This document shows positions 2,706 through 40,315 of a DNA stretch of 40,910 nt, piece after piece. Under the pieces are notes generated by a model. That model was given only the letters and a program-made list of their open reading frames with translations. It was not told the DNA's origin and ran no database searches. The stretch is from a virus. The translations under genes and the position numbers were made by a program. The stretch spans positions 1 to 40,910 of IMG/VR virus record IMGVR_UViG_3300046454_000274, one strand, 5' to 3'. Position 1 is the first letter of the stretch, and each line of letters begins with the position of its first letter.

Positions 2706-3848
2706 ATGGCTCTCACGACCATCCAGACCAACAACAAACTCATCAAGTTCACCAAGCAGGTGAACCGTGAGTGGGTTCGCGAAAACCTGTTCGCGCCCTA
2801 CATGGGCGAGGATATCACCGCCATCATCCGCAAGCGCATGGAGCCCGTCTCTGGCGGCGAGCAGATGAACATGCCCATGGTTGCCCGTTTGGGCGCCCAG
2901 GCGATCGGCTCCGGCGCTCTCGCCGGTAACGAAGAGTCGATCGACAACTACGGCATGCGTATGTGGATCGATTGGGCCCGCAACGCGGTCAAGACCAACA
3001 AGGCCGAGAAGCACAAGGACTCGTCCGCGATCTTCGACGTGGCCCGTCCCCTTCTGTCCGATTGGCTGAAGGAACTCAACCGCGACGAAATCATCCAGGC
3101 GCTCTACGCTCTCCCGACCGAATCCGCGCCCGCCGGTTTGGGCTCCGGGAACGGTCAGCGCGTTAACGGCATCCTGTTCGATTCCGCGACCGCTGCCCAG
3201 CGCAATACCTGGGTGACGGACAACGCTGATCGCGTGGTGTTCGGCCAGTTGGCTTCGAACTACAGCACGACCTTCGCGACCGCGACGGCCACGCTGGATT
3301 CGACCAACGACATCGCCAACACGGCGAACATGCGCTTCCTGAAGCGTACGGCTCGCGCTGCAAACCCGAAAATCCGCCCGTTCAAGATCAAGGACGGCCG
3401 GGAATACTTCGTGGCGTTCCATGGCTCGCGGACCTTCCGCGATCTGAAGGCGTCTCTCGACTCCATCAACACGAACGCTCGCGCTCGTGAAGGTGAAGGT
3501 CTCAACAAGAACCCGCTCTTCCAGGACGGCGATCAGCTTTACGATGGTGTCATCCATCGTGAGATCCCCGAAATCGACACGCTGGCTCCCGTCTTCTACG
3601 CGACGGCCGGCGCTTCGGGTACGACCCCGGTTCGTCCGGTCTGGCTGTGCGGTCAGTCGGCGATGGCGATGGCCTACGGCCAGATGGCCAAGCCGACGCA
3701 GCTCGACAATACCGACTACCAGTTCAACCAGGGCGTTGGCATCGAAGCCGCCTACGGCGTCGGCAAGATGTTCAAGAAGACCACGGGCGGCGCCATTAAG
3801 GAATGGGGCATCTGCACCGGCTTCTACGCTGCGACCCCTGACGCGTAA
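2706..3848 (+). CDS. Major capsid protein, N4-gp56 family (HK97 fold)
   Basis: 380 residues, typical for the N4-gp56/DUF4043 family of major capsid proteins. Recognisable features are an N-terminal helix with a KFTKQVNREW-like stretch, a GGEQMNMPMV segment followed by a GNEE loop (about residues 55-80), a DWLKELNRDE helix, a central YFVAFHG strand followed by a DLK motif, and a C-terminal GVGIEAAYGVGKMFKK segment. These proteins form the icosahedral shell. The gene stands alone between two terminator-like hairpins, with an SD-containing leader, consistent with high expression. Pairing with a P22-type portal rather than a P22-type coat is notable. Confidence 0.9.
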   Translation: MALTTIQTNNKLIKFTKQVNREWVRENLFAPYMGEDITAIIRKRMEPVSGGEQMNMPMVARLGAQAIGSGALAGNEESIDNYGMRMWIDWARNAVKTNKAEKHKDSSAIFDVARPLLSDWLKELNRDEIIQALYALPTESAPAGLGSGNGQRVNGILFDSATAAQRNTWVTDNADRVVFGQLASNYSTTFATATATLDSTNDIANTANMRFLKRTARAANPKIRPFKIKDGREYFVAFHGSRTFRDLKASLDSINTNARAREGEGLNKNPLFQDGDQLYDGVIHREIPEIDTLAPVFYATAGASGTTPVRPVWLCGQSAMAMAYGQMAKPTQLDNTDYQFNQGVGIEAAYGVGKMFKKTTGGAIKEWGICTGFYAATPDA

Positions 3849-3875
3849 CCCCTAGAGAGAAAAGGAACACATCAT

Positions 3876-4277
3876 ATGGGTACGGGTATCCCGGCTCGCT
3901 CTAGCGGCGACCAGACTGTCAACTACCTTCGCGCTCCGGTCACGTTCGCGATGGGCAATTCCGGCATCGTCAACGTCGGGACGCTTCCCGCTGGTTGCGC
4001 GGTGTTGCGTGCTTACATCATCGTGACCACAGCGTTCAACGCTGGCACCAACAACTTCCTCAAGGTTGGTATCTCCGGCAGCGACGCCTCGATCCTGTCA
4101 ACCGCCACGGTTTCGACGGCTGGCGTGATTGCAACCACCTCGGCACTGGCAACCGCCACGGCAGCAACGACCAACCCGACTGTTGACACCCTCGTCATCT
4201 GCACTTCGCTGATGACGGGCACGGTGGCGACTGCGGGTGTCGGCGTTGTCGTGGTCGAATACGCTCCGCTCTTGTAA
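3876..4277 (+). CDS. Small Ala/Thr/Val-rich virion-region protein, possible capsid decoration protein
   Basis: 133 residues beginning after AAGGAACACATCAT, 27 bases behind the major capsid gene. It is almost devoid of charged residues in its second half and very rich in Ala, Thr, Val, Ser and Gly, as in beta-sandwich decoration or head-fiber proteins. No catalytic motif is seen. Its place directly after the coat gene and its own downstream hairpin suggest an abundant structural protein that binds the capsid. The role is inferred from position and composition. Confidence 0.75.
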   Translation: MGTGIPARSSGDQTVNYLRAPVTFAMGNSGIVNVGTLPAGCAVLRAYIIVTTAFNAGTNNFLKVGISGSDASILSTATVSTAGVIATTSALATATAATTNPTVDTLVICTSLMTGTVATAGVGVVVVEYAPLL

Positions 4278-18240: not shown

Positions 18241-21200
18241 ATGGCATTCGGAAAGCTCGGCGCTATGGGCCGGGGATTTGGCTCCCTCGGTGGCCTTGGG
18301 AAAGCTGGGGGGAGCCATCCGGCCGCCCCCGCACAGGGCTTCGGCGCGGCCAACAGGCTTGCGGGCTCCTATCCGTTCTCAAGCGGATACACGTCCAGCA
18401 TCGCGTCGTGGGAATCGTGGCTCGGCAAGGCGAACGATTTCGTCCTGGCCTATTCGGCGGGGCCGGACTGGGCCACGATCGCGACCAATACCGACAGCCA
18501 GGTCACGTCGATTGCGGCGTCAAACCGCGCCATCCACTGGAACCTCTACATCCCAACGAGCGGCGTCACCTTGGCTGCGGTCGCGGCCGGCACCTATGAC
18601 ACGCAGCTCACGACGCTGGCGAACAAGTACCTTGCGGCGCGCCCGTCCGATCCGTACATCGTTGTCTCGATCTTCAAGGAATTCAATTTCAATACAAATG
18701 CGTGGACGTCGGTCGGCAACGAGGCGAACTTCATCGCAGCGTACCGCCACGTCGCAGTGCTGTTCAACAGCATCTCGAACAAGTTCCGGTTCGAATGGTG
18801 CCCGAACTGGAACGTGGTCATTACCGGCTCGCCCTATGATCCGTCTCTGGCATATCCCGGCGACGGCTACGTCGATGTCATCGCGATGGACGTCTACTAC
18901 ATCAACGCGTTCGACGGAACGGATGGCACTGCCGCGTGGAACGGCAAGCTCACTGCCACTTACGGCATTAATTGGCTCGTCAGCTTCGGCCTAACGCACA
19001 GCAAGCCGATCGCGTTGGGCGAGTGGGGCATTGACACTGATGTCGGAGGCCCTGCCTACATCGATCTAGTGAAGGCGTGGGTGAGCGCTCAGAACATCGC
19101 CTATCAGGCGTATTTCAACGCCAACAGCACGTTCAACAACCGCCTCGACCAGAACCAGTACCCGAATTCGAGCGTTCGGTTTATCGCCGACTTCGGCGTT
19201 GGGACTTTCGTTGTGGATCATTTCAACAACACGGGCGGCGCGAACGTCTCTCTCGTCGGGTGGGTTCCTGACACGACCGGAGCCGTAGCATGGTCGAAGA
19301 ACACGGTGTCTCCTACCGATAACGCGCAGGTCGCGTTCGCTACTGATAATGTCATTGGGACTGATGCAACGGGATCTTACTACGTCAATAAATCGACTGT
19401 TCCTGTCTCGGACTATGCCATCGCAGCCAATTTGGCGGATACCTTCGGAGCGAGCGTATTGACGCGCTTCTCCGACACGGCGTTGACCGGGTATCAGGCT
19501 TTCCGGGACAGCACGAACACGTCCGCGACTTATGGCTTCACGCTTCGCCGTGGCAATGCCGGGACGTTCACGAACATCGGGGCGATCGGCGCCTTCCCGT
19601 CTAACAATGTTCTTGTCTCGACTTGGGTCATGCCGGATCGCGTCCGCACCAAGCTTCAGGACGTTACCACGGGCGGCACGGTAATCGTTGACGACACCTC
19701 GGGATCGAAGATCACCGCCCAGAATTTCCCCGGCCTCAGCGTCAGGACAACGGCAGAGGTGGATGACTTCGTTGTTACCAGTATCCCACCTGTTGCTCGC
19801 GGCGGCAGCCAGCTTACGGCGGACGGCATCTGGACTTGGTTCAACGACCCGCGCTCGATCACGGTCAACGGCAAGACCTATTTCAGCTACGTTTCGTCCG
19901 CTGGTAACGTCATGCTGGCGCGGCTTGATGGCGGCATCGTAGTTACTGAGGTTGTGGTCGCTTCCGCATTGGAAAAAGACGACCACGACAACGGCGGCCT
20001 CATCGTTCTTCCTGGTGGACGGCTGGCTGTATTCTACTCCGCACATTCGTCAGACACGGTTGGCATGCGCTATCGCGTGACGACCAATCCTCTGCCGGAT
20101 ATTTCATCGCTAAATGCAGAGGTGCAGATTTCAAACGGCGGCGTTTCGACGGCCTATGCCAAGCCTTACTACTTTGCCGACGATAACAAAATCAGGCTTT
20201 ACTACCGCAGCGGCAATAGCACGCAGCGCGACCAGAAAGCCGCCATCGCTGATGCAACTCAGGTAGAAGCCGGGACCGCATCGTGGTCCCTGCAAACCGT
20301 CATCAGCATGACGAATCAGCGGCCCTATATACAGATCGTACAGAACGGGACCAACCGCATCGACTTCTTCATGACGAATGGTCATCCGAATGAGGTCGTC
20401 ACGTCGCTCTACCATATGTACATGACCGTTTCCGGCGGGGTGGAGAGCTACTTCAAGTCGGACGGGACATCGCTTGGTGCGATTCCAATCGATCCAACGT
20501 CAGCGACGCTTATCGACACCGGGTCCACTGGCGGGCGTTCGTGGAACTGGTCAATCGGCATCGGTGGCGATGGTTTCGCGCGTGTGATGTTTGCAAAGTA
20601 TCCATCGAGTACAGGTGCGCGCGATACATTCTTTACTGACGTTCAATATTGGCATGGGCGATGGAACGGATCATCGTGGGTCAAGACGCAGCTCAGTTCA
20701 GGCCAGCATTCGCTCTACGCCAACGAGAACCATTACCTCGGCGGCATGACTTTCGACGCCAATGACGTAACCACCTTAGCCCTCAGCGAGTGGAACAGCA
20801 CGAACGCCGTCAACAGGCTCGTCGAGTATTCATTCAACGAGAGCACGGGCGTAAAGACACAGGTTCGTGTCGTCGCTGACGATCCCAGCTCGCATCAGTT
20901 GCGGCCCTACAGCCCGAAAAACCACGGCGACGATTGCAAGTGGGTATGGGCCGAGGGTGGTTATGTCTGCTATGGCGTCGGTTCGTCCCAGGCCAGCACA
21001 GTCCCCGTCCCACCGGCATTCCAGCCCTACAACACGACGCTCCGCTACGCTCCGAAGCTTGGCTATACGCCGCCGGCCTATAGCTTCACCAACGCTGAAG
21101 CCGCGGCGGTCGCTGCTGCCTTCACGACGCCTCCGGTTGATACGCGGAAAATCCTGATGGATAATCTGGTGTCGGAGCTCAAGTCGGCCGGCATCTGGAG

Positions 21201-21825
21201 CTTACTGGATGTGTTCTACATTCTGGCCGCTGCGGACTCGCAGGCTGGAACGATCAACTGGATCACCCCGGCCTCGTTCACGCTCCTTCCGATCAACTCG
21301 CCGGGCTTCCTCGCCGACCGCGGCTATATCGGAAACGGCACGACCAGCCGTCTCAGAACACAGTTTACGCCGAGTGTTAATGGCACCAAGGGAACGCTAA
21401 ACGACTATTCGCTTTCTGCATTCTCTCTCACCAACCTCGACGCCTCAAACTCGGCGGACTTCGGAAGTGTGACCGCCCCACGTTCGTTCATCACTCCGGT
21501 ATCGGGTGGTTTTGCGGCGTGGAGCGTTAACGACGCTGGCGGTGGAACAAACCCGGCAAACGTCAATTCAATCGGCCTCTTCCAAGCGCAGCGCACGACC
21601 AGCACCGCTACCAGACTGTTCAAGAACGGTGTGCAGGTTGGGCCTGATCGAGTCGTCACTTCCACGGCTATCGCATCACAAGAAGCGTGGATTTGCGGCG
21701 CGGATGCGACGAACTTCTCGGCTCGCCGCATTGCAATGGCGGCATGGGGTGCGGGTCTCGCCGGCAAGGAAGTCTCATTCTACAATATCGTGAATGAGTA
21801 CCTTCACGCGATCGGGGCGACCTAG
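18241..21825 (+). CDS. Multidomain tailspike: GH26-like glycosidase, BNR_4-like propeller, lectin-like C-terminus
   Basis: 1194 residues. Residues 1-35 are a Gly-rich probable virion anchor. Residues ~42-315 form a clan GH-A barrel resembling GH26 endo-mannanases: FKEFNFN with Glu147 as acid/base, EWCPNW at 185-190, a YPGDGYVDVIAMDVYY segment (205-220) and IALGEWGID with nucleophile Glu261. Residues ~320-520 look like a lectin-type jelly roll. From 521 a BNR_4-like repeat domain begins (DGIWTWFNDPRSITVNGKTY), a propeller found in polysaccharide lyases and sialidase-like proteins; the last ~200 residues are again LamG-like. It probably depolymerises host surface polysaccharide during adsorption. 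Confidence 0.85.
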   Translation: MAFGKLGAMGRGFGSLGGLGKAGGSHPAAPAQGFGAANRLAGSYPFSSGYTSSIASWESWLGKANDFVLAYSAGPDWATIATNTDSQVTSIAASNRAIHWNLYIPTSGVTLAAVAAGTYDTQLTTLANKYLAARPSDPYIVVSIFKEFNFNTNAWTSVGNEANFIAAYRHVAVLFNSISNKFRFEWCPNWNVVITGSPYDPSLAYPGDGYVDVIAMDVYYINAFDGTDGTAAWNGKLTATYGINWLVSFGLTHSKPIALGEWGIDTDVGGPAYIDLVKAWVSAQNIAYQAYFNANSTFNNRLDQNQYPNSSVRFIADFGVGTFVVDHFNNTGGANVSLVGWVPDTTGAVAWSKNTVSPTDNAQVAFATDNVIGTDATGSYYVNKSTVPVSDYAIAANLADTFGASVLTRFSDTALTGYQAFRDSTNTSATYGFTLRRGNAGTFTNIGAIGAFPSNNVLVSTWVMPDRVRTKLQDVTTGGTVIVDDTSGSKITAQNFPGLSVRTTAEVDDFVVTSIPPVARGGSQLTADGIWTWFNDPRSITVNGKTYFSYVSSAGNVMLARLDGGIVVTEVVVASALEKDDHDNGGLIVLPGGRLAVFYSAHSSDTVGMRYRVTTNPLPDISSLNAEVQISNGGVSTAYAKPYYFADDNKIRLYYRSGNSTQRDQKAAIADATQVEAGTASWSLQTVISMTNQRPYIQIVQNGTNRIDFFMTNGHPNEVVTSLYHMYMTVSGGVESYFKSDGTSLGAIPIDPTSATLIDTGSTGGRSWNWSIGIGGDGFARVMFAKYPSSTGARDTFFTDVQYWHGRWNGSSWVKTQLSSGQHSLYANENHYLGGMTFDANDVTTLALSEWNSTNAVNRLVEYSFNESTGVKTQVRVVADDPSSHQLRPYSPKNHGDDCKWVWAEGGYVCYGVGSSQASTVPVPPAFQPYNTTLRYAPKLGYTPPAYSFTNAEAAAVAAAFTTPPVDTRKILMDNLVSELKSAGIWSLLDVFYILAAADSQAGTINWITPASFTLLPINSPGFLADRGYIGNGTTSRLRTQFTPSVNGTKGTLNDYSLSAFSLTNLDASNSADFGSVTAPRSFITPVSGGFAAWSVNDAGGGTNPANVNSIGLFQAQRTTSTATRLFKNGVQVGPDRVVTSTAIASQEAWICGADATNFSARRIAMAAWGAGLAGKEVSFYNIVNEYLHAIGAT

Positions 21826-32347: not shown

Positions 32348-32643
32348 GGCTGCACCCACTTGCAGATCGGGATTTGCACGGCACAAAGATGCTCGACCAT
32401 CGCTCGGCCCCGGTCTGTGATTGAGAAGAACGGGCTTTCTTTTCCCTCGCGAATGGCTTGGTCTATCGACCACGACACGTCGCCGAACTTTGACTTGAGA
32501 AGGCCTTCCTTGACGAAGCAATCCATCGCCTCGTGAACGGCCGGAGACCTCGCATGCGCGGGATTTGAGTCGTCCGCCCAAGCGGCGTAGTCAGTCGGGC
32601 TGGCGTAATAGTGCAGCAGCATGTTGATGCAGAGAGGGCTCAT
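32344..32643 (-). CDS. Hypothetical early protein, possible winged-helix
   Basis: 99 residues from ATG 32643 (a GTG one codon earlier also exists). It begins MSPLCINMLLHYYA, and the pattern of helices followed by PFFSITDRGRAMVEHL (about 69-84) is common in small phage winged-helix proteins where a helix reads out ITxxGR at the wing. DNA binding is possible but unproven. Second gene of the leftward early operon. Confidence 0.7.
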   Translation of the reverse strand: MSPLCINMLLHYYASPTDYAAWADDSNPAHARSPAVHEAMDCFVKEGLLKSKFGDVSWSIDQAIREGKESPFFSITDRGRAMVEHLCAVQIPICKWVQP

Positions 32644-32897
32644 CACGCGGCTTCCCCGTTCTTGCGATAGTCGCGAGCGTGGTCGATCTGGAAGACGGCG
32701 CTGTTGCGCTCCTCATCTTCCTCGGTGTTGCTGATGGCTTCGGAGAGGTCTGCGATTGCCGAGAGGCGCGTGGGGCCATAACCGCGGACGCGACCGTCTT
32801 CGCGCTCAAGGTAGGCGCCGAACTGGCCATTCGGGCAGAGGCCAGTGATGACGTGGCAGTCGTTTTCCGGAAAGTAGTGCCTGCGCCGCTGGTCCAT
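32643..32897 (-). CDS. First gene of the leftward early operon, unknown function
   Basis: 84 residues; ATG 32897 has GGGGAC upstream in a 37-base leader from the predicted leftward promoter. Its place corresponds to lambda N, but it is not Arg-rich at the N-terminus and lacks an N-like motif. The sequence shows a FPENDCHVITGLCPNGQFGAYLE beta region and a central ADLSEAISNTEEDEE helix. It may be an early regulator or anti-defence protein; neither is shown. Confidence 0.75.
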   Translation of the reverse strand: MDQRRRHYFPENDCHVITGLCPNGQFGAYLEREDGRVRGYGPTRLSAIADLSEAISNTEEDEERNSAVFQIDHARDYRKNGEAA

Positions 32898-32940: not shown

Positions 32941-32969
32941 ACTGTAACCGTGGCTGATACACACGTCAA
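32941..32969 (-). promoter_or_regulatory. Leftward early promoter (PL-like)
   Basis: Reading leftward: -35 TTGACG (5/6; 32969-32964), 17-base spacer, -10 TACAGT (4/6; 32946-32941). Expected start near 32934, 37 bases before the first early gene. One 17-bp operator fills the spacer and enters the -10 box; another lies 7 bases upstream of the -35 box. Confidence 0.7.
32944..32960. promoter_or_regulatory. Operator OL-a (17-bp palindrome)
   Basis: GTAACCGTGGCTGATAC. It shares 13/17 positions (on the opposite strand) with the OR-a site and occupies the PL spacer, overlapping three bases of the -10 box, so bound repressor should block RNA polymerase. Confidence 0.65.
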
Positions 32970-32976
32970 CAATAAA

Positions 32977-32993
32977 GTGACGGCTACAGTCAC
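32977..32993. promoter_or_regulatory. Operator OL-b (17-bp palindrome)
   Basis: GTGACGGCTACAGTCAC, with 5-bp perfect terminal arms GTGAC/GTCAC. It lies 7 bases upstream of the PL -35 box, 33 bp centre-to-centre from OL-a, about three helical turns, suiting cooperative binding on one face. Confidence 0.65.
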
Positions 32994-33006
32994 ATTTTTT
33001 CTGGGC

Positions 33007-33035
33007 AAAGAAAAACCCCACGTTTCCATGGGGTT
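33007..33035 (-). terminator. Terminator of the repressor transcript
   Basis: Leftward reading: a 7-bp stem AACCCCA/TGGGGTT with an 8-base loop, followed by TTTTCTTT. It lies 22 bases past the repressor stop and before the PL region, insulating the leftward promoter from repressor transcription. Confidence 0.8.
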
Positions 33036-33056
33036 GCGATTCGATTGCGGTCTATA

Positions 33057-33407
33057 TTAGCGGCCAGCGATGCCTCTGACAGCAGAAATCGCGGCCTGCT
33101 GCTTCACTGGATCGTCCATTTCCTCGATCATGTCGTCCAAACTAAAAACTGTTTGGCCTGGTGCCGGCGGCGGAAACCAGAGCTGGCTCGGCTTTATGCC
33201 TATGGCTGCGGCGATTATATCCATTTCCCCGGCGTTGATCGTCCACCAGTTCTTTTCGAGGCGGTAGTAGCTCTCGCGCTCGATATCGAGGGCATCCGCC
33301 AGATCGACGGCCTTGGTACCCATGAACTTCCGCCAATCCCGCAGATAGAACGGCCGGCGCTTGGCTGGAACCTTAGCAGGAAGGTGTCTCTTCTTGTGTG
33401 TAACCAT
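33057..33407 (-). CDS. HTH (XRE-type) repressor, CI analogue
   Basis: 116 residues from ATG 33407. A basic N-terminus (THKKRHLPAKVPAKRR) precedes an XRE-type helix-turn-helix (about 24-66: FYLRDWRKFMG, VDLADALDIERESYYRLEKN). The remaining ~50 residues hold a Pro-rich linker and an acidic helix (SLDDMIEEMDDP) likely to mediate oligomerisation. There is no LexA/S24 peptidase domain. It lies between the two operator pairs and points left, exactly like lambda cI. No SD is seen; a weak -10 (TATTGT) places the transcript start at about the ATG. Expected role: maintain lysogeny by repressing PL and PR. Confidence 0.8.
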   Translation of the reverse strand: MVTHKKRHLPAKVPAKRRPFYLRDWRKFMGTKAVDLADALDIERESYYRLEKNWWTINAGEMDIIAAAIGIKPSQLWFPPPAPGQTVFSLDDMIEEMDDPVKQQAAISAVRGIAGR

Positions 33408-33441
33408 GCTGGGCACAATACCGCACTGCCGAAATGAGTGG

Positions 33442-33458
33442 GTATCAGCAGCCGTCAC
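33442..33458. promoter_or_regulatory. Operator OR-a (17-bp palindrome)
   Basis: GTATCAGCAGCCGTCAC. It lies 8 bases upstream of the PR -35 box. Its centre is about 43 bp upstream of the predicted repressor transcript start, the position from which lambda CI activates its own promoter (-42), so autoactivation is possible. Confidence 0.65.
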
Positions 33459-33466
33459 TTTTGTCC

Positions 33467-33496
33467 TTGACAGACTGTGACAGCAGCGGATACAAC
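33467..33496 (+). promoter_or_regulatory. Rightward early promoter (PR-like)
   Basis: -35 TTGACA (6/6; 33467-33472) and -10 TACAAC (33491-33496, 18-base spacer) or the overlapping GATACA (33489-33494, 16-base spacer). Transcription should start within a few bases of the ATG at 33504, which has no SD, so the Cro-like mRNA may be leaderless. Confidence 0.65.
33477..33493. promoter_or_regulatory. Operator OR-b (17-bp palindrome)
   Basis: GTGACAGCAGCGGATAC; its reverse complement matches OR-a at 14/17. It fills the PR spacer and runs into the -10 box, mirroring OL-a at PL. Centre-to-centre distance to OR-a is 35 bp. Confidence 0.65.
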
Positions 33497-33503
33497 CACG
33501 GGC

Positions 33504-33740
33504 ATGCAGACGCACCCGCTCAGAACCTACCGCACCTCCAAGACGCCAAAGCAGTCGCAAGCTGACTTGGCAAACATCCTTGGCGTGTCGCGGCTCACCG
33601 TTCTCCGTTGGGAAAACGGCGATCGCAAAATCGATGAATCTCTTCTTTCAACCGTAGCCGAGAGAACGGGCATCCCCGCGAAGGAATTGCGCCCGGATCT
33701 CGTGCTTCGTCTTGAGCAGCTTGTGGGTGGGGATCAGTGA
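33504..33740 (+). CDS. Cro-like HTH regulator
   Basis: 78 residues from ATG 33504; an upstream GTG at 33477 lies inside the promoter and is rejected. XRE-type HTH (about 17-60: KQSQADLANILGVSRLTVLRWENGDRKI) with an ERTGIPAKELRPDL segment following. First gene rightward from PR, divergent from the repressor with a 96-base switch region between. Likely binds the same operators to favour lytic growth, by analogy with Cro; binding order unknown. Confidence 0.8.
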   Translation: MQTHPLRTYRTSKTPKQSQADLANILGVSRLTVLRWENGDRKIDESLLSTVAERTGIPAKELRPDLVLRLEQLVGGDQ

Positions 33741-34881: not shown

Positions 34882-34917
34882 GATCGCGTGGGCGGTCATC
34901 ACGGGGAGGGGGAAATA

Positions 34918-35391
34918 GTGACATCATTCGAAATGCGTCTGCATGCCGAGCACAAAGCCCGGCAAGCTAGATTTTCTGCGGCGGCAATGCCGCATAACAC
35001 GATTGAGTTTATCGATCCGCCGCCGCCTCAACCGACAGCGACGTCAATCCCGCCGATCTTGAACGAGCAAATCAAGGAAGCTCATTCGATGATCGAGCGG
35101 CCGTGGGTCAACCAGGTCGAGACCATTCAACGCGCGGTGCTTGCGAAGTTTCCGGGCATGACGTTGGCGGACATCAAGTCATCGAGCCGTGGCGCGAAGT
35201 GTGTCGCTCCCCGGCATCTCGCGATGTACCTCTGCAAGGAATTGACTGACAAATCCTTGCTCGACATCGGACGGCGCTTTGGCGGTCGAGATCACACCAC
35301 GGTGCTCAACGCGATCAACCGCATCACCGCGCGCCTGCTTGACGATGAAGAATTCGCGCAGTTCGTCAACCGGATTCGGGAGAGCATCTGA
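34918..35391 (+). CDS. DnaA domain IV protein, probable replication initiator accessory
   Basis: 157 residues from GTG 34918, which has GGAGG 8 bases upstream; an upstream GTG at 34888 has no SD. After a ~55-residue polar, Pro-rich N-terminus, residues ~62-157 match the DnaA C-terminal DNA-binding domain: VAPRHLAMYLCKELTDKSL, IGRRFGGRDHTTVLNAI (117-133), the DnaA-box-reading signature. The AAA+ ATPase domain is missing. It could recruit host DnaA machinery to the phage origin or compete for DnaA boxes. The following replication genes support a replication role. Confidence 0.85.
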   Translation: MTSFEMRLHAEHKARQARFSAAAMPHNTIEFIDPPPPQPTATSIPPILNEQIKEAHSMIERPWVNQVETIQRAVLAKFPGMTLADIKSSSRGAKCVAPRHLAMYLCKELTDKSLLDIGRRFGGRDHTTVLNAINRITARLLDDEEFAQFVNRIRESI

Positions 35392-36842: not shown

Positions 36843-37096
36843 TCCGCGATCCCTCAGACGGCACGGTCAAGGAAATCAGTCCTGAGGCCAACAAGATCAA
36901 TACTGTAGAGCCGAAAACGCTGTCCGAGGAAATCAGTGGTTTGCCGGGCGGATCGCAGAAGCGGAATAATATCGCGCGTTTGGAGTGGTCACGCGATTGG
37001 CTGAAAACTTATCACGCGAAGAAGGAACGGGAAAATGCAGAACGGGGCAACGATGAGCGATCGACCAGTGACGTACAAGATCGGGCAGGTGGTTGA
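36839..37096 (+). CDS. Small charged hypothetical protein
   Basis: 85 residues from ATG 36839 (ATGA overlap). Polar and partly disordered, with a basic helix (RLEWSRDWLKTYHAKKEREN, about 52-71). It may be a lambda P-like loader by position, but it is far too small and has no such motif. Overlaps the NusG-like gene by 62 bases. Function unknown. Confidence 0.65.
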   Translation: MIRDPSDGTVKEISPEANKINTVEPKTLSEEISGLPGGSQKRNNIARLEWSRDWLKTYHAKKERENAERGNDERSTSDVQDRAGG

Positions 37097-37703
37097 GTTC
37101 GTGAATCTGATCGAGCGTGAGCAAGGTGAACGTCAGTTCCATATCACCCCAACGTCTCGGTGGTATGTTGCCGTGACGAATCCGAATTGTCAGGCTCGCG
37201 CGGCCCTTGGGCTGCATGAACTCGGCTACCGGAGCTTCTATCCGAAGATCCGCCGCTGGGTGTCTCACGCTCGCGTTAAGACGGCCAAGGAGAAGCCCTT
37301 GCTAGGCCGATACATCTTCGTCGAGGTTGACCAGCCACGCCAGTCATTTGGCGCCGCTCGCAAGGTGAACGGCATTGAGGGATTTGTGTGCAATCCCGAT
37401 CCGGTTCGCATTCCCACCCACTTCGTCCAGCGCATGCGCGAGCGGTACGTCTACGGCGAGTGGGATTTTGTCCGCCAAGAGCCGTGCCCGTTCTATGAGA
37501 TGAACAAAGAAACGGGTCAGATGGAGCTTCAGACCCGACAGAATGCACCGATCCCGATCGGAGCTCGTATTAAGATCGTCGAGGGCGAATTCAACGACAT
37601 GCTTGCCATCGTGACAGCCCGCAAGGGACGCCGGATCGATTTCAAGCTTGCTGGCGAGAACCGTTACGGGCGGATGAACGAATGCTCCGTGAGGGCCGCA
37701 TGA
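37035..37703 (+). CDS. NusG-family transcription antiterminator (phage paralogue)
   Basis: 222 residues. ATG 37035 follows AAGGAACGGGAAA; an ATG at 37053 is an alternative. Residues ~42-135 form an NGN domain (RWYVAVTNPNCQARAALGL, LGYRSFYPKIRRWV, LLGRYIFVEVD, VNGIEGFVCN) and ~174-205 a KOW motif (PIGARIKIVEGEFNDMLAIV). NusG proteins bind RNA polymerase and suppress pausing or, as in RfaH, act on specific operons. Located last before the noncoding region and late genes, where lambda has Q, it is a good candidate late antiterminator. N-terminal ~40 residues are an extension. Confidence 0.85.
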   Translation: MQNGATMSDRPVTYKIGQVVEFVNLIEREQGERQFHITPTSRWYVAVTNPNCQARAALGLHELGYRSFYPKIRRWVSHARVKTAKEKPLLGRYIFVEVDQPRQSFGAARKVNGIEGFVCNPDPVRIPTHFVQRMRERYVYGEWDFVRQEPCPFYEMNKETGQMELQTRQNAPIPIGARIKIVEGEFNDMLAIVTARKGRRIDFKLAGENRYGRMNECSVRAA

Positions 37704-38928: not shown

Positions 38929-40315
38929 GTGGTGCAGATACGCGGGCTTTGAGCCGGCTGAGCATCATAAGCTGATCAATTCGAAGCTGGAGACTGTTGC
39001 AGGCGGAGTTTGCGATCGGTTGATGATCTTCGCGCCTCCAGGCTCGGCCAAATCGACTTATTCTAGCATTCTCTACGCGCCTTGGTACTACGCACAGCAT
39101 CCCGCTCATTGCGTCATTGCCGCATCGCATACCGCGGAACTCGCTGAGAAGTGGGGGCGGCGCGTTCGTAACCTCGTTGCTGAGCATTCGCCAACTCTAG
39201 GAGTCGGTCTTGCGCCTGATAGTCAAGCTGCCGGGCGATGGGAGACTGATCATGGAGGCGAATATTTTGCAGCCGGCGTCGGCGGGGCCATTGCTGGACG
39301 ACGAGCTGACCTGGTTGTCATCGACGATCCAATCCGTAGCCGAGAGGATGCTGACTCTGAGACCGTCCGTGACAAAATCTGGGACTGGTACAAATCCGAC
39401 TTATATACTCGACTTAAGCCGGGCGGCCGGATCGTACTGATCCAGACCAGGTGGCATGAGGATGATCTAGCTGGTCGTTTGCTGGCCGATATGGCGAGCG
39501 GAGGAGACCACTGGGACGTTATTTCACTGCCTGCGCTGGCTGAGGCTGACGATCCTCTTGGACGCGTTGTAGGGCAGCCTCTGTGGCCTGAGTGGGAAGA
39601 CGAAGCCAACCTGGAGCGCAAGCGGCGCGCGGTTGGAGCTCGCGATTGGTCAGCGCTGTATCAGCAGCGGCCAGCGCCTGAAGACGGCGACTATTTCAAG
39701 CTTGAATGGCTGAAGCATTATGACATCGCACCGGCACTCAATACGATGCGGGTCTATGGCGGATCTGATTACGCAGTCACCGCTGACGGAGGAGATTTCA
39801 CGGTCCATGCCGTCGTTGGGATCGATCCAGAAAATCGAATGTTTCTCCTCGATCTCTGGCGCAAGCAGGCATCGCCCGATGAATGGATTGAGGCGTTTTG
39901 CGACCTGGTTATCAAATGGAAGCCGCTCGGCTGGGCAGAAGAGCAGGGGCAAATCCGATCTGGCATTGGTCCGTTTCTTGATAAACGTCAGCGCGATCGA
40001 AAGGCTTATGTCTATCGCGAGCAGTTTCCTACCCGCGGGGACAAGGCTGTGCGTGCCCAGTCCATCCGTGGACGAATGGCACTTGAGGGATTGTACGTTC
40101 CTACTTCCGCCAAATGGTACGCCGATTTCCGCTCTGAACTACTCTCGTTTCCGGCGGGCAAGCACGACGACCAAGTCGACGCGTTGGGATTGGTTGGACA
40201 GTTGATGGCTCGCATGAGCGCTGGCGCTCGTCCTCTTGAGGCTGAGAAGCCCAAGAACGTAACCGGCTACAAGCGCACGTCATCCGACGATACCGAAAGC
40301 TCAAAGGTGTATTGA
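38873..40315 (+). CDS. terL: Terminase large subunit (ATPase/nuclease)
   Basis: 480 residues from ATG 38873; the frame is open to 38819 but this start matches the usual N-terminus. ATPase domain: Walker A APPGSAKST (54-62), Walker B LVVIDDP (147-153) and a coupling-motif-like QTRWHEDD (191-198). Nuclease domain: GGSDYAV with Asp299, WAEEQGQI (about 354-361) and KHDDQVDALG near the C-terminus, the acidic triad of RNase H-like terminase nucleases. It cuts concatemers and pumps DNA through the portal encoded directly downstream. Confidence 0.95.
   Translation: MEAARELQRRRSVRRNLTEWCRYAGFEPAEHHKLINSKLETVAGGVCDRLMIFAPPGSAKSTYSSILYAPWYYAQHPAHCVIAASHTAELAEKWGRRVRNLVAEHSPTLGVGLAPDSQAAGRWETDHGGEYFAAGVGGAIAGRRADLVVIDDPIRSREDADSETVRDKIWDWYKSDLYTRLKPGGRIVLIQTRWHEDDLAGRLLADMASGGDHWDVISLPALAEADDPLGRVVGQPLWPEWEDEANLERKRRAVGARDWSALYQQRPAPEDGDYFKLEWLKHYDIAPALNTMRVYGGSDYAVTADGGDFTVHAVVGIDPENRMFLLDLWRKQASPDEWIEAFCDLVIKWKPLGWAEEQGQIRSGIGPFLDKRQRDRKAYVYREQFPTRGDKAVRAQSIRGRMALEGLYVPTSAKWYADFRSELLSFPAGKHDDQVDALGLVGQLMARMSAGARPLEAEKPKNVTGYKRTSSDDTESSKVY

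Follow-up and report, generated by a model that had tools for sequence, protein, structure and literature searches.

A probable phage immunity switch with paired operators of conserved spacing and a probable further operator on the repressor start codon

The locus considered here belongs to a window that comprises the whole of the IMG/VR virus record IMGVR_UViG_3300046454_000274 (40,910 nucleotides), and it raises the question of whether the short related sequences found around two divergent helix-turn-helix (HTH) genes are the operators of a phage immunity switch and, if so, how many operators there are and how they are placed. An initial annotation of the DNA had proposed a lambda-like switch with mirror-image promoters and two operators on each side. 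The reading as a lambda-like immunity switch is supported by the present analysis, and the stretch most probably serves a temperate phage as its immunity switch. The comparison of sequences indicates that the repressor-binding sites are real, with a spacing that is kept in at least fourteen other viruses while the letters change, and that a fifth, overlooked site probably lies on the start codon of the repressor gene.

The cI-like repressor gene (33057..33407, minus strand) encodes a protein of 116 aa, which has an HTH of the Xre/Cro-C1 type only and no peptidase domain, and the cro-like gene (33504..33740, plus strand) encodes a protein of 78 aa with an HTH_3 domain (E 3.5e-8). An intrinsic terminator (33014..33035, minus strand) is found after cI and before the operator OL2, and the first predicted gene of the PL operon (32643..32897, minus strand) encodes 84 aa with no family match. 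With ERF, YqaJ, NinB and an integrase among the genes on the left, and with a DnaA C-terminal domain protein, a replication initiation protein, a NusG-like protein and the terminase among those on the right, the gene plan is that of a temperate phage. The NusG-like protein (37035-37703, plus strand; 222 aa, NusG domain E 4.3e-12), which is encoded between the replication genes and the terminase, is a candidate phage antitermination protein, and the 167-aa protein encoded near the replication initiation protein (34888-35391, plus strand) has only the DNA-binding C-terminal domain of DnaA (E 1.3e-24). A late-region protein of 1,194 aa (18241-21825, plus strand) carries a BNR_4 repeat domain (E 2.5e-23), and neither Rfam families nor tRNAs were found in the window.

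The four related 17-bp sites of the annotation are all present at the positions given there. On the left, PL (32941..32969, minus strand) is formed by a -35 box TTGACG (32969-32964) and a -10 box TACAGT (32946-32941), with a spacer occupied by OL1 (GTAACCGTGGCTGATAC, 32944..32960), and OL2 (GTGACGGCTACAGTCAC, 32977..32993) ends 7 bp upstream of the -35 box, its centre 33 bp from that of OL1. On the right, PR (33467..33496, plus strand) is formed by TTGACA (33467-33472) and TACAAC (33491-33496) with a spacer of 18, which is occupied by OR1 (GTGACAGCAGCGGATAC, 33477..33493), and OR2 (GTATCAGCAGCCGTCAC, 33442..33458) ends 8 bp upstream of the -35 box, its centre 35 bp from that of OR1. At both promoters, the spacer operator and the -10 hexamer overlap by 3 bp, which end the former and begin the latter. 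The mirror-image architecture and both centre distances are borne out in this way, and the pairwise identity of the four 17-mers ranges from 9 to 14 of 17 positions according to orientation, with the maximum of 14/17 that had been claimed.

When a matrix of the four sites was run over the whole 40.9-kb record, the operators scored 18.7-20.8, values that are not independent evidence, given that these training sites had been placed by eye before scoring, and the next place, at 39658, scored 13.2; equally good sites are not scattered through the coding DNA. With leave-one-out matrices, applied to 40,894 positions, only the training sites outscored each held-out site, apart from one tie, between OLb and 39658. 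The latter (39658-39674), the best operator-like site outside the switch, lies within the large terminase gene and is probably a chance match. Better evidence is provided by the ranks of a further, untrained site and by the counts of the bare skeleton GTnnC-N7-GnnAC, which has 14 matches in the 40.9 kb, against a shuffle mean of 8.8, with 6 of them inside this 550-bp stretch. The sequence at 33161-33177 was considered as a further operator and rejected, being coding and not preserved in the related loci L009 or L010.

The same layout, in which a cro-like gene diverges from the gene of a short HTH repressor, was found in 14 further IMG/VR loci (L008, L009, L010, L011, L012, L013, L025, L033, L034, L036, L050, L052, L054 and L055, with only the right side covered in L052), which were obtained by scanning viral contigs with both proteins and their alignments. 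About nine lineages were distinguished by eye, and the more distant loci L053 and L058-L061 were left out of the counts. The operator letters vary among the lineages and agree inside each phage, and the positions are fixed, as in the examples of GTTTCCAATCTGGCAAC in L012, GTGACCGGAGCGGTTAC in L013 and L025, and GTGACCAAATCGGTTAC in L033 and L036. Over the 15 loci, the skeleton has 62 matches inside the switch regions, compared with 2.9 expected from base composition, and when a stricter pattern was run over the whole records of ten relatives, most matches were located in the switch and a few lay outside it. No relatives were found in the genome contigs that were scanned, nor any close relative of the switch region at the DNA level among the GenBank phages, in which patches of 80-82% identity to two Bradyrhizobium phages were recorded outside the switch, mainly in the left operon of ppBjS10J-1.

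In several of the relatives, small genes for lipoprotein-like or membrane proteins separate cI from OL (in L011 at 3342-3572, in L050 between cI and OL2, and in L034, L033 and L054), and none is present in the window; the gap that holds these genes is the position of rexAB in lambda. In L012, the repressor gene (3561-3899) appears to be frameshifted, through either an assembly error or a broken gene.

The centre spacing of both OL1-OL2 and OR1-OR2 is mostly 32-36 bp, and a second class of 43-46 bp is found in L033 (left), L036, L054 and L055 (left). As these two classes are separated by about one helical turn, the spacing suggests that the two dimers must sit on the same face of the helix. The helical phase of the OL-OR distance follows no clear pattern. 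There are two left operators in the window and usually two in the relatives. A third left operator-like site is found 32 bp from OL2 in L033 (at 2422) and L034 (at 2286), and a similar, degenerate match lies beside OL2 in L054.

The predicted -10 box of PRM in the window, TATTGT (33415..33420, minus strand), starts 13 nt before the cI ATG, and the -35 box of this promoter is poor here and in most loci. Of 14 loci, 13 have a -10-like hexamer that begins 12-13 nt upstream of the cI ATG and is itself preceded by OR2 at 30-32 bp, and the corresponding distances in L025 are 15 nt and 28 bp. Thus, OR2 would be found at approximately -40 to -44 relative to the predicted PRM start across the loci, and at about -42 in the window. 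Given that the predicted -10 box of PRM is only 12-15 nt from the ATG, the cI mRNA is probably leaderless, as is probably the mRNA of cro, whose ATG follows the beginning of the PR -10 hexamer by 11-16 nt across the loci (13 nt in the window), the conserved ATG at 12-14 being taken for L010, L013 and L052, and the L008 record ending inside cro. The fifth site, OR3 (GTAACCATGCTGGGCAC, 33400..33416), which is one of the six skeleton matches of the 550-bp stretch and was missed by the initial annotation, contains the cI start codon (CAT, the ATG of the minus strand) and has its centre 42 bp from that of OR2.

No peptidase family was found in the 116-aa repressor in either Pfam or PHROGs, and the length of the repressor across the loci is 105-118 aa. 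Relative to the curated HTH_3 cut-off of 23 bits, the cro-like protein reaches 33.8 and the repressor of the window 14.1, which is below the cut-off; five of ten aligned repressors match HTH_3 at E 0.01 or better. The AlphaFold2 model of the repressor (mean pLDDT 69.6) is confident in the HTH and uncertain in the C-terminal helix. The nearest solved structure, by profile (E 1.3e-7) and also by fold, is that of Neisseria NHTF (PDB 3vk0), a bacterial regulator that aligns with the repressor mainly in the HTH region and with a weak fold match (E 6e-3). In searches of the GenBank phages, tblastn of the window repressor gave no match at E 0.01, and the cro-like protein gave weak matches only, mostly to Streptococcus satellite phages. 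As the repressor has no self-cleaving domain, its induction must probably differ from that of lambda, and an antirepressor or another inactivator is probably needed.

The sites, their conserved spacing, their agreement within each phage, the promoter-like boxes and the position of OR3 can be read from the DNA, and from these we infer which protein binds, its cooperativity, the activation of PRM and the order of filling. The 116-aa HTH repressor would bind as dimers to OL1 and OL2 and to OR1 and OR2, the two dimers of each pair sharing one face of the helix. Once bound, it would cover the spacer and the -10 box, shutting PL and PR. The dimer at OR2, placed near -42 from the PRM start, would activate the transcription of cI, and the transcript would begin at or next to its own ATG. 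At a high level, the repressor would fill OR3 and shut PRM, as Cro may also do early in lysis, and the cro-like protein would probably use the same sites in another order of preference.

A rather unlikely alternative is that the two HTH proteins do not share these sites, with the 116-aa protein occupying them for lysogeny and the cro-like protein acting elsewhere or at a single site only. The Cro of PY54, which binds to a single site, OR3 (PMC4488713), provides a precedent for such a separation, and the two HTHs of the present locus are divergent, but the record has no other good sites, and OR1 and OR3 are positioned where Cro would be expected to act.

In the proposed switch with shared sites, the closing of PRM would depend on OR3. 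An operator-type 17-mer that includes the cI start codon, 42-44 bp from OR2, is found in 13 loci, and it is the best untrained 17-mer of the locus in 11 of these 13. The site is stronger in the relatives, reaching in L013 the level of the main sites, and weak in the window, where 20 of 7,984 untrained positions score better; no recognisable OR3 was found in L034 and L052. Half of OR3 is coding, and for that half the conservation of the Met-Val-Thr start of the protein could be the explanation. Taken by itself, the non-coding half gave p values of 0.0004-0.023 in 12 loci and of 0.08 in the window, with a moderate 0.01-0.08 in the clade of the window. Combining ten loci by Fisher's method gave 3e-13, a value that is too small since the loci are related. 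In L011 and L012, OR3 has GTTGCC or GTTACC on the coding side and GTTTCC on the other side, which are the letters of the operators of those same phages. The non-coding half of OR3 in the clade of the window fits the matrices of other clades better than its own, which is a point against OR3 in that clade.

It is unlikely that the switch has strictly two operators on each side, with the match at the start codon reflecting no more than the conserved Met-Val-Thr start. The weakness of OR3 in the window, the fixing of its coding half by the protein start and the two loci that lack the site all speak for this reading, but the invariance of the repressor residue T3, in an N-terminus that is otherwise variable and has residues 4-16 that vary freely, argues against it, as do the agreement of the non-coding half with each phage's own operators, seen in the GTTTCC of L011 and L012, and the top rank of the site in most loci at a constant distance from OR2. 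OR3 in the window itself is best regarded as probable, not certain. On whether there is a family of phage switches with a leaderless repressor gene whose start codon forms part of a third right-hand operator, such that the letters of this operator dictate Met-x-Thr and a change of immunity specificity would also have to alter the start of the protein, the case from the sequences is evenly balanced. Neither a start-codon operator nor spacing classes one turn apart were found to be reported in the literature that was searched, outside which most subscription journals lie.

It is highly improbable that the sites serve a host regulator, or that they are terminator or hairpin elements, as might be thought from OL2, where T residues follow a weak stem and the score is terminator-like, given that the letters change together within each phage at fixed positions and that all of the sites surround the phage's own HTH genes. 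Chance resemblance in GC-rich sequence, which a skeleton count near the shuffle mean over the whole record might seem to allow, is practically negligible, being already refuted by the clustering of 6 of the 14 matches in 550 bp and by the conservation over the 15 loci.

In lambda, it is from OR2, near -42, that CI activates PRM, and the cI mRNA made from this promoter is leaderless. The present switch has in common with lambda the divergent repressor and cro genes, the operators that PL and PR share, one of them inside the PR promoter, and, as predicted here, an OR2 near -42 of PRM and a cI transcript that starts at its ATG. It differs from lambda in the spacing of the operators, which is 24 bp there (PMC11796464) and 32-36 or 43-46 bp here, in the OL-OR distance, which is 2.3 kb there (PMC5880393) and approximately 0.4-0.7 kb here, and in OR3, which here takes in the start codon and lies 42-44 bp away from OR2. 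Lambda also has three operators on each side, whereas the left side usually has two here and the third on the right is weak in the window, and its repressor has a self-cleaving C-terminal peptidase domain, where the present one has the HTH only. Given that the left operator number, the spacing and the lack of a cleavable repressor depart from the features that define lambda, the switch is not filed as lambdoid, even though it works like that of lambda.

The count of two operators per side, which the annotation had set against the three of lambda, holds for the left side, usually two, and gives way on the right to a probable third site on the cI start codon. Nor is this number a new design, since the listing for Rhizobium phage 16-3 has two operators per side, oL1, oL2, oR1 and oR2 (PMC12429752), and phage 933W has no OL3 (PMC5977221). 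As in the operator listing of the temperate, rhizobial phage 16-3, there are two left operators in the window, which has a probable third one on the right. The switch is more distinctive in its spacing of 32-36 (or 43-46) bp, in having an operator on the start codon and in the lack of a peptidase domain in its repressor. Leaderless cI and cro mRNAs were demonstrated by RACE in PY54 (PMC4488713), and in the telomere phages N15, PY54 and phiKO2 an OR3 is found just upstream of the repressor gene (PMC4488713), although PY54 differs in having one operator, in place of a paired set on each side. Acetobacter phage phiAP1 (LC644972) and Bradyrhizobium phage ppBjS10J-1 (OP596615) combine a short HTH repressor, a divergent cro and paired operators, with the OL pair of phiAP1 34 bp apart and the pairs of ppBjS10J-1 44-45 bp apart, but their operator letters are different (TTTCGCATAATGCGAAA and CCTACCAAAACGGTAGG), and ppBjS10J-1 has its third site on the right next to the annotated cI start and not on it.

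Fifteen natural switches with one geometry and with varied operator letters and repressor sequences provide a series for the study of residue-base recognition, which is also suited to tests of helical phasing, given that about one turn has been added naturally in several of them. The start-codon operator, if true, would be a clear example of a promoter, an operator and the beginning of a coding sequence sharing a single stretch of DNA, and, with a repressor that has no cleavable domain, the induction of these prophages becomes a question in its own right.
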